A stretch of 64,000 bases of DNA, taken from the NCBI GenBank assembly GCA_944325195.1, contig CALUZB010000019.1:1-64000 (forward strand), read 5' to 3'. This document shows, one piece after another, positions 47,369 to 63,200 of this stretch (positions within the stretch are counted from its first letter, which is position 1; every line of letters starts with the position of its first letter). Origin of the DNA: an uncultured Desulfovibrionaceae bacterium (lineage in GTDB: Bacteria; Desulfobacterota; Desulfovibrionia; Desulfovibrionales; Desulfovibrionaceae). The notes beneath the pieces were generated by a model. It was not told the origin of the DNA. It did no database searches and saw only the letters and a list, made by a program, of their open reading frames with translations. Both the position numbers and the translations under genes were made by a program.

Positions 47369-47929
47369 TTGGAAAGTATGGTTCTTGCTCTACACGTTAT
47401 TGTGTGCGTAATTCTGGTTATTCTTGTCCTGCTGCAGGCCGGTAAGGAAGGCATGGGCGTAATTTTCGGCGGCGGCGGCTCTTCTGTTTTCGGAAGTTCC
47501 GGCGCAGGCGGCATTTTGGCCAAACTCACTGCTTTTCTTGCGGTGATGTTCATTGTTACATCAGTCAGTTATACCATGATGACCAAGCCGGCAACTTCTG
47601 CTGACAATAGTGTGATGCAAAGCCTTGAGCTGGAAAAAGCCACGCCGCCCGGGCCGTTGGCTCCCAGTGGGCCTGCTGCGCCGGTTGCTCCGGGCGGTCC
47701 TGTGGCACCGGAAGCTCCGGTGGTTAATGCTCCTGAAGCGCCTGTGGCGCCTGTTCCCGAGGCGCCTAAGCCGCCGGTTGTAACAGAGGAGGCAGATAAA
47801 GCAGGGCAGGGAGACAAGGCCGATGAGCCTGACAAACCTTCTGATACTGCAGGTAACGCCGCGGCTGGGGCGGGCGAGGGCGCAGCCGGGAATTCTGATG
47901 CCGGGCCGGGTAGTAATCAGGTTGATTAA
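47369..47929 (+). CDS. secG: Preprotein translocase subunit SecG with long Pro/Ala tail
   Basis: 186 residues. Residues 1-75 are ordinary SecG: two membrane helices (VLALHVIVCVILVILVLLQ and AFLAVMFIVTSVSYTMMT) around the loop GKEGMGVIFGGGGSSVFGSSGAGGIL. The remaining 110 residues are low complexity, first Pro/Ala/Val repeats (APxAPV-like), then Glu/Asp/Lys and Gly/Ala. Such tails are known in some proteobacterial SecG proteins, though this one is long. The start is TTG 47369, with AGGAG upstream, giving the usual MES/MET-VLxxHV opening. A hairpin terminator follows. Confidence 0.93.
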   Translation: MESMVLALHVIVCVILVILVLLQAGKEGMGVIFGGGGSSVFGSSGAGGILAKLTAFLAVMFIVTSVSYTMMTKPATSADNSVMQSLELEKATPPGPLAPSGPAAPVAPGGPVAPEAPVVNAPEAPVAPVPEAPKPPVVTEEADKAGQGDKADEPDKPSDTAGNAAAGAGEGAAGNSDAGPGSNQVD

Positions 47930-48909: not shown

Positions 48910-48925
48910 TGGCACGAATTATGCT
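48910..48925 (+). promoter_or_regulatory. Sigma-54 promoter match before the orphan gene
   Basis: TGGCACGAATTATGCT against the consensus TGGCACG-N4-TTGC(A/T): all fixed positions match except one T to A. The GG and GC dinucleotides stand at the required spacing. Predicted start near 48936, about 33 bases before the ATG. Sigma-54 promoters need an enhancer-binding activator; none is encoded in the window. Confidence 0.65.
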
Positions 48926-48968
48926 TGTATCCGCTTGAGAGACTAAAATTTCCGATAAGGCGGTAGTT

Positions 48969-49598
48969 ATGAGTATTAGTTCGATTGTTGGTAATAAGGG
49001 ATATTCAGCGCTTCTTGATAATAGTAATAACGAGCAGAACTTGCTGGATAAACTGGCTGAGGAGAAGGCTAAAAGCAAAACCGGGTCAAATGAGAGCATT
49101 GTGTCGCCTGGTCGCAAACAGTTGCGGGCCTATACAAGTACCGGCGATGCTTTGGCCTCTTTGAAGGAAAATGGAATTCCCATTACCCGTGAGAGTGTGG
49201 CAACAGAGATAGAGCGTAGGGAATTACAGTTTCAACTGTTGGTTTCCAGCTCATTAAAGGCGTTGGGCATTGATGAGGATATCGAATTTAAAATCACTTT
49301 GGATGACAATGGAAAGATTATTGTAAACTCATCTCATGAAGATAAAGACAAGGTTCAGAATTTCTTTGATAGTACCCCGGAACTTGCGGAAAAGTTTAAA
49401 AATCTTGAGTCACTTAAGAACCTGAGCAAAAGTATGGAAAGGACCCCCGTAAGCATGACCAGCTTGCGCAAGAGCATTCAACTGGAAAATATGGATTCCT
49501 TTTTCAGAGGGATGGAGCAGGCGAGCTACAGCAGTTTAATTCTTTCATACTCTAAGAGCTCAATTCTCTCACTTGCTGGAATTGACATGAGCGTATAG
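48969..49598 (+). CDS. Orphan protein of unknown function, probable sigma-54-regulated
   Basis: 209 residues, not recognised with confidence. It begins MSISSIVGNKGYSALLDNSN, a polar, Ser/Asn-rich start without a signal peptide. It has a central stretch (TRESVATEIERRELQFQLLVSS then LGIDEDIEFKITLDDNGKIIVNSSHEDKDKVQNFF) that looks like a folded beta/alpha unit, a Lys/Glu/Leu-rich helix, and a Ser-rich end (SSLILSYSKSSILSLAG). The base composition is more A/T-rich than the neighbouring genes. The polar disordered start, lack of Sec signal and sigma-54 promoter are typical of flagellar or type III export substrates and accessory proteins; that is an inference. It stands alone between two gaps of about 1 kb. 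Confidence 0.75.
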   Translation: MSISSIVGNKGYSALLDNSNNEQNLLDKLAEEKAKSKTGSNESIVSPGRKQLRAYTSTGDALASLKENGIPITRESVATEIERRELQFQLLVSSSLKALGIDEDIEFKITLDDNGKIIVNSSHEDKDKVQNFFDSTPELAEKFKNLESLKNLSKSMERTPVSMTSLRKSIQLENMDSFFRGMEQASYSSLILSYSKSSILSLAGIDMSV

Positions 49599-50583: not shown

Positions 50584-51906
50584 TCAGGTGCTGGTCAGAT
50601 TTGCCGAAACCGGGGTTCCGTCAGTCCCCAGATATGGGTTGAAATAGCCGAATCCCACCCAGGGGCAGGCACGTTTCACTCGTTTGCGGAAGTTGTTCAG
50701 ACCCATATTTGGTCCGAATTCCAGGCCTTGTAATAGAGTTAAATACATTTCCGGGTCAATGTTCAGATTGCGCAGTTGAATGAAATCCACTTTAAGGCGG
50801 GAGAGATTTTCTATCAGAGCGGCAACTTCCAACTCGCAGTCGGACACACCCGGGAAGTAAAGCAGATTCAGGGATACAAACACGCCGTTTTGCTTGGCGA
50901 TGGCAATGCTTTCCAGCACATGCTCAAAACTGTAGCCTTGAGGCCGGTAGTAACGATTGTAAACTTCCGGACGCAGGCTGTTCAGGCTTACCCGCATGGA
51001 GGAAAGGCCGGCCCGGGCCAGTCGTTCCATCACTTCAGGGCGGGAAGCGTTGCTGTTCAGATTTACAGTGCCGGGAGTAAGGCCCGCGGCTTTTTCCTGT
51101 TCGCGGAACAGGGTGATTGCCTGGATGATTGTTTCCGCTTCGGTAAGCGGCTCGCCTTCACAACCTTGCCCGAAAGAGTAAACCGGGGTACGTCGTTCCC
51201 GCTGGCCGTGCTGTAACATTACTTCTGCGATTTCCTCCGGACTTGGGGTAAAGGTCAGACGGCATTGCGGGGTGGTTTGAATGGGCGAGTCGGGATCTTG
51301 GGCGGATATACAGCCGATACAGCGGGCATTGCACACCCTGGAAACAGGCAGAGGTGCTTCGTAACGTCCCAGGGCCAGGTTACGGGCGGCCGGGCAGGCG
51401 TAGGTAAGAGCGCATTTTCCCATGAGGTGCTGCATCAATCGGTTTTGGGAATATTGCTTCATCAGGGTGCGGGCTTCCCGCCGGATTACCGTCGGGGGAA
51501 TATTGCAGAATACCTGACGGTTGTCCTGGTCAACCCGGCGGGCGCATACATAAAAACGGCCGTTGGCAAAACCCACCGCGCCATAAGCGAACAGGGGCAG
51601 CACCGGGGCATCGGAATCAGTGATGTAAGCGGCGTTTCCGCTCAGTGTGTGAGCCGGAGAAACAAAAGCGGACACAGCGGTTTCTTCCGACACTACCAGT
51701 TCGCCGCTTTCCTCATCAAGCCCTACTGCTCTACGCCCCGGCAGGAGGAACAGCTCGCTTTCCTTGGGCAGGGGCATTAATTCGTCTGGCCGGGGCAGGC
51801 TGAAGCTGTTGCCTTGCCTGCATACCATTAAAAGACTAGGGTGTTCAAAAATATTGCCGTTATCGTCCGCCATAAGCATCAGCGGTTTAATTGTTGGTGC
51901 TGCCAT
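50584..51906 (-). CDS. Orphan radical SAM protein
   Basis: 440 residues. A non-SAM N-terminal part (about 1-185) with cysteines (KCALTYACP near 165) precedes the 4Fe-4S motif CNARCIGC (CxxxCxxC, near 192). After it come FGQGCEGEPLTE (GGEP-like, SAM-binding), TVNLNSNASRPEVMERLARAG and SMRVSLNSLRPEVYNRYYRP, as in the AdoMet radical barrel. The short C-terminal end shows no SPASM cysteines. The reaction is unknown. The long N-terminal domain and lack of peptide-precursor or cofactor genes nearby argue against a simple RiPP enzyme. It is divergent from a small membrane protein. Confidence 0.82.
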   Translation of the reverse strand: MAAPTIKPLMLMADDNGNIFEHPSLLMVCRQGNSFSLPRPDELMPLPKESELFLLPGRRAVGLDEESGELVVSEETAVSAFVSPAHTLSGNAAYITDSDAPVLPLFAYGAVGFANGRFYVCARRVDQDNRQVFCNIPPTVIRREARTLMKQYSQNRLMQHLMGKCALTYACPAARNLALGRYEAPLPVSRVCNARCIGCISAQDPDSPIQTTPQCRLTFTPSPEEIAEVMLQHGQRERRTPVYSFGQGCEGEPLTEAETIIQAITLFREQEKAAGLTPGTVNLNSNASRPEVMERLARAGLSSMRVSLNSLRPEVYNRYYRPQGYSFEHVLESIAIAKQNGVFVSLNLLYFPGVSDCELEVAALIENLSRLKVDFIQLRNLNIDPEMYLTLLQGLEFGPNMGLNNFRKRVKRACPWVGFGYFNPYLGTDGTPVSANLTST

Positions 51907-60268: not shown

Positions 60269-63200
60269 CTATTCCGTCACCTTAATGTGGCGGTCACCCG
60301 GAGAGCTGGCTTGAACGGAACGGTCGTACATAGCCTCGCCGTACAGGGGCGGCGCGGTGAACTCTCCTGCACTCACCGCTCTGATTACATAATAAGCGGT
60401 GCGCACTTCCGGCCCTGCAGAGCAGTAAATCAGCACTCGATCTTCTCTTTCTTCAATGTGGCTGTCGGCCGGAACCGGAACCGTCAGTTTTTCCGAAATG
60501 GCCAGGTTTTCCTGATCGTCATAGGGAACCAACTCGAAGCCGCCCGGCAGCAGGTCCACCAGAGCCACATCGTTGATATAGCGTCCGTTTGTGGAACGCG
60601 CCCGCAGAAATACCACTACTTCCTGACCCATCTTTACCTCACTGACGGGTTCACCGGACAGGGTGTAATATTCCTTGCTCACTTCCAACCCGTTTTTCAC
60701 CGCTTCAGGGGCTGGGGCCAGGTCAAATCCGGATTGGCGCAGACTGTACCAGGCGGGCCGGGGCAGAGATTTGCTGAGCAGCAGGGCCTGGGTATCCGGA
60801 CCGAAGGCGGCTTTGAACAGCAGGCCATGTGCCTGGGAAATGAGATTGGTGCGGGTTGAATCGGGCGGAGTCTGGGTTCCGGCCGTGGGCATGTTGTCGG
60901 GGGCAGACGTCGGCCCATTGCCGGCCTCATTTCCGCTGTTCGTACTGTCAGGGGCGCCGGTTGCTCCATCGGGCGCAGCAAGCGCGGCAATGCGGATTTC
61001 GCCCTGCTCCAGCAGGGGGCGGCGGGCATATTGATCCAGGGCCAGCAGACACATGGCGGCGGAGAAGGTGGTATGCCGGTTTATGGATAAAGTCGGAATA
61101 ATCTGGTCCAGAACAGGTTGCGCCGCTTCCAGGGCCAACTCAGGGAAGTGCCTTTCCAGCAGATACAGCAGGGTTGCGTTGCTGCTCAGGCGGTCATAAT
61201 GGCTCACCCAGGCGGGGGCAAGAGCGTTGGAGCTGTTCCGGACGGCCACAGGCTCAAGGGCGGCGTCATCGTCAGCCTGGTCACGCTGATTGGCCGCAGC
61301 TTCCATATTTTTCGCGGTGAAACGGGCAAGCACCCGTTTCATCAGGGCATCGGCCTGCTCGTCCTGTTTAAGTAGTTTATATGTGGCGGCCAGGTAGGCG
61401 GCGCTGATATCCCCTTCCATCTGTTCGGGATAAAACCGTTTCAGATCGCGTTCCAGCGCGGCCAGCAGGTTGGTGGGAATCTGCTCTTGCCGGACAGTGA
61501 GATATGCCGTCCATGCCTTGACCCTCAACTGGTCCAGGCGGTTGTAGGCAGGGTTGTCCGAATAGTTCAGCAGATAGGCAGTAGCGTTTTCCAACAGAGG
61601 CGTGGGCGCAACAAGGCCTGAATCGCGCAACTCCAGCAGATAATGTACGGCATAGGCGGTGACTTCCGGGTTGGGATTGAGGCTGCCTTGCCAGTCGCCG
61701 ATGCCTCCTTCCGTATTCTGTCGAGCTGCCAGCAGAGGCAGCACCTGGTCAACGCCCCCGGCCGATCCTGTATGGTCAGGAAGCTTTTCCAGCAATTCGA
61801 ATTCCGGATGACGCATCTGAATGAGTTGGGGCAGGGCTCCGCTGATCAACTGCTCGGAACACAGGTGAGGGTATTCAATTAAATAGCCGGAAAGTCCGCG
61901 CACCAATACCAGAGGTGAATATGAGGCGGCCGCGTCCCGCTGGGAGAATTCCGGGTACATGGCCCGCAAATTGCTCAGGCGCACAGTCTGATCGCCCAAT
62001 TCGCCCAGTTGCAGGTCTGTACGGTAGGGCTGGGCCGGACGCACCGACACTGCTGCTTCGCGCCGGAACTGTTTGCCCTGATGCTCTGTTTGAAAGACCA
62101 GCCTGGCCGCTCCCAACTTCCTACCCGCCTGCAGTTGGAAGCTGACAAAGCCTTCCTGTCCCGGGGTCAGACTGAGGGCGGCGGTACTGTCTCCCAGCAC
62201 GCTCAATCCGTCTTCGGCGCTTAAATGAATGGTCAGCGGAGTTTGATCGGCTACCGGGACTTCTGCGGAGCTCTGTGCATTTGTTGCGCCCGCTCCATTT
62301 TCCAGCAGATTGGTCACACCCAGGCTGACCGTAAAACTGTCGCCGGGTGCAACTGTAGCGGGCAGGTTGGGGGTGAGAATAAAATCGTCGCGTACCAGGC
62401 TGCTGGTCTGGAATATTCCGATCTGTCCGTCAGTCACGCTCACAGCCATGATCCGGATTTTGCCGTTGAAGTAATCGGGCACCGGATAAACCAGCTCTGT
62501 TTCTCCGTCCACTTCAATCAAGCCGGACCAATAGGTCACGGGCGCATCGGTTTTGCGGGCAAAGGGATTGAGCTGGCGGGCCAGCAGATCGGCATCGGCC
62601 CCGCCGCCAGGGGCGGACGCTGCAGCCGATATCCTGAACATGGGCAGCACCAGGTCGAGAATCTGGGCGGTTTTCACTTCCAGGGCGCGTTTGGGTAACA
62701 GAGAGTGCAGCGGGTCCTGCAAACTGTAGTCCGCCACCTGCAAAATGCCCTCGTCCACGGCGAACACCACCATTTTGGCTGGTTTGGGGCTGGAAACGCG
62801 CATAGTCAGATCCTGCCCCGGTCTGACTGTCTCCGGCGCGACGATTTCAAGCTCTGCCCGTCTGGCCTTGAGCGACGTGCTGAAAGGCAGCACTCCGTAT
62901 GAAAGCGGACTGCTGAAAATCTCCGTGGATTCAGGTGAGCGGCTGAACTGCACGTTCACATATCCGTTGCCCTGGAAATCTTCCGGAATGCGGATACGCT
63001 GCACTGAGGCAGTGGTGGGGCTGCTGAACCAGGTTTTAGCGTAAACCCGGTCACGCTCAATGGTAATCAGCCCATTGCCCGGGTAGGGGGCATTGATGGC
63101 TATTTCAATTTCTTCGCCCGGCTCGAACTCCCGCTTGTTTAGGGCAAGTTGCAGTTCGGCATTGCGCTCGAGCGAGCGGGTGAGGTTGGCGTTGCCGGCT

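Follow-up and report, generated by a model that had tools for sequence, protein, structure and literature searches.

A gene family with a conserved sigma-54 promoter that probably belongs to the late flagellar regulon of Desulfovibrionaceae

The flagellar co-expressed secreted proteins of Campylobacter are non-axial substrates of the flagellar type III apparatus; they are controlled by sigma-28, and their export has been shown. By description, the 209-aa protein analysed here is like them in its predicted late flagellar co-expression, in having no Sec signal, and in standing outside the rod, hook, and filament families, but it is unlike them in its sigma factor and in that its export is something we infer. 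For DVU1063, the FlbD-like flagellar regulator of Desulfovibrio vulgaris Hildenborough, the main descriptions (PMC3333781, PMC4641369) give a regulon with sigma-54 promoters, a GGCA...TGCC palindrome, and sites downstream of the promoter, all of which recur in the family described below, and its targets comprise flagellar genes together with several nameless ones. The motif is printed there as GGCAxxxxTGCC (PMC3333781), and the downstream location of the flagellar sites is an unusual one (PMC4641369). The sites of FlrC likewise lie downstream of the promoter (PMC6504787), although the FlrC class III flagellar genes of Vibrio cholerae belong to other bacteria and encode other products. The family of the 209-aa protein is not named in the main descriptions of the DVU1063 regulon (PMC3333781, PMC4641369), and one of the nameless DVU targets may be a member of it. 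A further parallel is DVU4010, which as described (PMC4641369) is also a lone sigma-54-controlled hypothetical gene proposed to encode a type III substrate, but which is set apart by its description as regulated by DVUA0100 with the injectisome, whereas the present family follows the flagellum.

The gene lies in a window of 64,000 nucleotides, the whole stretch of DNA that was analysed, from an uncultured Desulfovibrionaceae bacterium (Table 1). It begins 1039 bases after the end of secG (at 47929) and is followed, after 985 bases, by an opposite-strand neighbor ending at 50584, in agreement with the gaps of about 1 kb that had been described on each side. Because the next gene in a second species of the genus stands only ∼220 bases downstream of the ortholog, we do not regard these gaps as part of the feature. 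The protein of that second species is 66% identical, and the two genes differ at 62, 35, and 114 nucleotides in codon positions 1, 2, and 3, respectively, from which we conclude that the reading frame is coding and the protein is under purifying selection. The GC content of the gene is low (42% versus 52% in the window), and horizontal acquisition was considered on this account and rejected; since orthologs are spread through the taxonomic family, a recent single acquisition is not needed.

Table 1. Positions of the promoter, gene, and protein features in the window (position 1 is its first nucleotide).
Feature	Coordinates	Strand	Basis
Sigma-54 -24/-12 promoter TGGCACGAATTATGCT, 11/12	48910..48925	+	Sequence; conserved in family
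Candidate enhancer half-palindrome GACTAAAATTTCC	48941..48953	+	Position fits phased family palindrome
Shine-Dalgarno-like AAGGCGG	48957..48963	+	Sequence; kept in same-genus ortholog
Gene of new family, 209 aa, ATG start	48969..49598	+	ORF, profile match, orthologs, codon-position bias
Residues 1-45, mostly disordered N-terminus from MSISSI, Ser/Thr/Asn-rich, candidate export signal	48969..49103	+	pLDDT, composition
Folded core, residues 56-160	49134..49448	+	AlphaFold
C-terminal tail GIDMSV	49578..49595	+	Family consensus G-L-N/D-x-x-V at end

Homologues were present in 13 of 39 relatives by whole-genome protein search, and with a profile built from 14 homologues, members turned up in 96 of 199 genomes from the order, nearly all of them in the window's own taxonomic family; the genomes are a sample, and absence means the lack of a profile match and so rests on the sensitivity of the profile. 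Few genomes outside the order have a member (4 in the phylum sample). Pseudodesulfovibrio pelocollis is among the organisms with a family relative. With this spread, and with a paralogue in its own genome, the gene is not an orphan, and the separate acquisition of the original prediction is not supported. A genome may hold up to 3-4 family matches. The paralogue (L003:5807-6748, contig C9) has its own sigma-54 site; the frame of its conserved domain differs from that of its family-like N-terminus, which starts at GTG, and this points to a frameshift or an assembly error. In one genus (g35) most homologues are longer (316-412 aa), and the central unit occurs in them at least twice; at loci such as L094, L096, and L100, tandem helix/beta-hairpin units lie inside the usual N- and C-terminal ends. 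Searches of Pfam, NCBIfam, and PHROGs gave no match, or only sub-threshold, mutually inconsistent ones; a single-sequence scan of genome contigs gave none, whereas profile searches of whole genomes did; the plasmid search returned no homologue, and the PDB sequence search no convincing relative.

Sigma-54 sites were scored over the 12 positions of the consensus TGGCACG-N4-TTGCW. The site before the gene departs from it at a single position, retains both the GG and the GC, and is separated from the ATG by 43 bases, so that the near-perfect sigma-54 element originally predicted before the 209-residue ORF is indeed there. On both strands of the 64-kb window only two sites scored at least 10/12, and no substantial ORF follows the second, at 61960. 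Using a family criterion of a GG/GC sigma-54 site of at least 8/12 located between -120 and -24, we found the site to be kept in 86 of 91 unique family members, whereas dinucleotide shuffles averaged 10 and 8% of random stretches had such a site; the promoter is therefore not a chance occurrence. The distance from promoter to ATG in family members is typically 40-75 bases, and distant relatives in two further genomes (G372 and G357) also keep the site. This family-wide conservation supports the assignment of the gene to sigma-54 control, as had been suggested from the single site.

Between the promoter and the ATG, most family members carry a palindrome of the form GG(C/A)A-N5-T(G/T)CC. Matches of at least 7/8 to GGMA-N5-TKCC were found in 68 of 86 5' leaders versus 7.7 in shuffles, and their centers lie ∼24, 34, 45, and 56 bases from the G of the -12 element, that is, one helical turn apart. 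The helical phase gave a Rayleigh R of 0.76 at a period of 10.5-11, with a significance that is inflated by the relatedness of the sequences. The motif agrees with the one published for DVU1063 and Caulobacter FlbD (PMC3333781), and its downstream position agrees with that described for DVU1063 (PMC4641369). The N5 spacing, as in Caulobacter FlbD, is enriched in the family leaders; the exact GGCA-N4-TGCC, as printed for DVU1063, is not, nor is a FlrA/DVU2894-type site (GTCA-N6-TGAC). When the pattern is loosened and one mismatch is allowed, gaps of 4 and 6 score too because the A/T-rich core slides, and the exact form picks gap 5. The paralogue has two perfect palindromes, GGCAAACCATGCC and GGCAAAATTTGCC. 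In the leader of the 209-aa gene itself, the candidate GACTAAAATTTCC matches at 6/8, with an intact right half-site, a degenerate left one, and the right phase. About half of shuffled leaders reach 6/8, and activation by an FlbD-type regulator is thus not readable from the gene's own leader, the match being at chance level.

A strict composite pattern that joins the sigma-54 site to the palindrome had 6 matches in the 2.48-Mb genome and 0 in the reversed control. Five of the six precede fliD, flgD-flgE, a hook-type gene, a TPR gene beside flgBC-fliEF, and the paralogue, so the single-gene regulon that had been offered for this locus is not upheld. Composite sites occur in 16 of 17 flagellated relatives, and in six of these such a site stands immediately before a flagellin gene; among the 13 non-flagellated relatives, eight lack composite sites, and five have a few matches that look like chance. 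Members of the 209-aa family stood beside flagellar genes in 0 of the 15 neighborhoods examined, with no conserved flagellar synteny.

Flagellin is present in 174 of the 199 genomes of the order and in all 96 of the family-positive ones, a joint presence with a chance probability of 1.4e-8 if the genomes were independent. In genus g35, the family was found in 27 of 27 flagellated versus 0 of 10 non-flagellated species, and in genera g7 and g41 the flagellated species (one each) have it and the non-flagellated species (one each) do not. In an rpoB tree built for 30 genomes, the family and flagellin change jointly and independently seven times without exception; five of these changes are on well supported branches, and with five such pairs a sign test cannot attain 0.05. 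The family went undetected in 78 flagellated genomes of the order, which indicates an accessory rather than a core or essential flagellar part. Together with the phased palindrome and the composite promoter at flagellar genes, the joint distribution supports the flagellar link of the original prediction.

The AlphaFold model of the protein has an N-terminus (residues 1-45) with pLDDT mostly below 50 and a core made of a helix, a long helix (74-98), a beta-hairpin (108-120), and further helices (126-158). In the g35 homologues, the duplication affects the region that surrounds the hairpin. The model, which drew on 61 sequences, is confident in the core, with block means of 92-96 pLDDT over residues 81-150, and has mostly disordered ends. 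Family N-termini have few charges and abound in Ser, Thr, Asn, and Tyr. Compared with control ORFs, they contain 26% versus 12% Ser+Thr, 16% versus 8% Asn+Gln, and 6% versus 12% Lys+Arg, a composition that may be taken as a weak sign of export. Fold comparison gave no convincing match to any solved structure: the lowest Foldseek E value was 0.37, and the VIA-align Z scores, which were to coiled-coil hairpins, did not exceed 6.3. Among the 61 members, no credible Pfam match to flagellar axial or flagellin domains (rod, hook, HAP) was seen, the best score being that of FlgK_D1 in one member (E 0.0094).

On the basis of promoter conservation, the phased palindrome, the composite promoter at flagellar genes, and the joint loss with flagellin, all features of sequence, we consider it probable that the gene belongs to the late part of the flagellar regulon and that its product is a non-axial protein exported by the flagellar type III apparatus. 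Sigma-54 RNA polymerase would start the gene from the -24/-12 promoter with the help of an FlbD/FlrC-type enhancer-binding protein (in Desulfovibrio, the DVU1063 orthologs) bound to a palindrome that lies shortly after the start site, and the gene would be switched on together with fliD, flgD, and the hook genes. The product, with its unstructured Ser/Thr/Asn-rich N-terminus, predicted helix/beta-hairpin/helix core, and conserved short C-terminal tail, would then pass through the flagellar type III apparatus to become a non-axial accessory or secreted flagellar protein. What we infer is that a DVU1063 ortholog activates the gene, that the product is exported, and where it finally acts. As flagellar control coincides with a type III neighborhood elsewhere in the family and with a signal-like N-terminus, type III export is the most economical reading. 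More generally, because the family is co-regulated with flagellum genes and lost with the flagellum, this widespread, uncharacterized family without any domain model is probably a new, still unnamed flagellar component or export product of sulfate reducers and their relatives. A tentative extension, which we think possible but would not favor, is that throughout the Desulfovibrionaceae, and in a genome that is likely Lawsonia, the family is exported via the flagellum as a non-axial protein with a repeatable helix/beta-hairpin/helix unit and acts extracellularly or at the flagellar tip.

The same regulon and co-loss evidence would also fit a flagellar-regulon protein that stays in the cell as a chaperone, an assembly checkpoint, or a protein that regulates flagellar export or the enhancer-binding protein, and a helical core with a hairpin is found in many chaperones and adaptors. 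We regard this as unlikely, though deserving of attention: a conserved polar, disordered N-terminus and tail, up to 3-4 matches per genome and internal domain duplication in some genomes, and absence from many flagellated species would all be unusual for an assembly factor, and none of the Pfam or NCBIfam models of flagellar chaperones and regulators matched.

The type III neighborhood just mentioned raises the matter of whether it is the injectisome (the non-flagellar type III system) and not the flagellum that has this protein as its substrate. A distant relative in G357 (L140:9638-10390), which has its own sigma-54 site, is directly downstream of the injectisome genes sctN to sctU (sctRSTU), although this frame has a TAA after MSIASIAA and so may be broken or start later; in D. 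vulgaris, moreover, DVU4010 is described as a predicted injectisome effector (PMC4641369). Against this, the genome of the window has no match to the injectisome secretin (SctC), the protein is missing from seven injectisome-positive, flagellin-negative genomes of the taxonomic family, and on the rpoB tree the injectisome secretin does not track the family. Distribution thus largely refutes an injectisome substrate for this order, and we hold that explanation to be very improbable. Scarcely any likelihood attaches to a sigma-54 gene without flagellar function whose joint distribution with flagellin reflects a free-living life style or genome reduction. In favor of such an account, the distribution data are correlative in nature and the gene lies apart from flagellar loci; but g35 genomes without a flagellum lack the gene even at 2.8-3.1 Mb, a size that equals that of the flagellated ones, and independent evidence comes from the flagellar-type enhancer palindrome and from its phase.

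The analysis offers a testable function for a widespread gene family that lacks any domain model, and it would add one gene to the flagellar program of sulfate reducers and of their gut and animal-associated relatives. A sigma-54 site followed by a phased palindrome also provides a simple signature for finding flagellar genes outside flagellar clusters. Two loci of contig C15 in the same genome were observed in passing. The TPR gene with the composite flagellar promoter (L144:5888-6451) encodes a 187-aa protein, is divergent from flgBC-fliEF, and is probably another unannotated gene of the flagellar regulon. Near flgBC, a 220-aa ORF (L144:1984-2646) that starts with MLNSISPYNPD has a similar polar N-terminus and could be another candidate export substrate.
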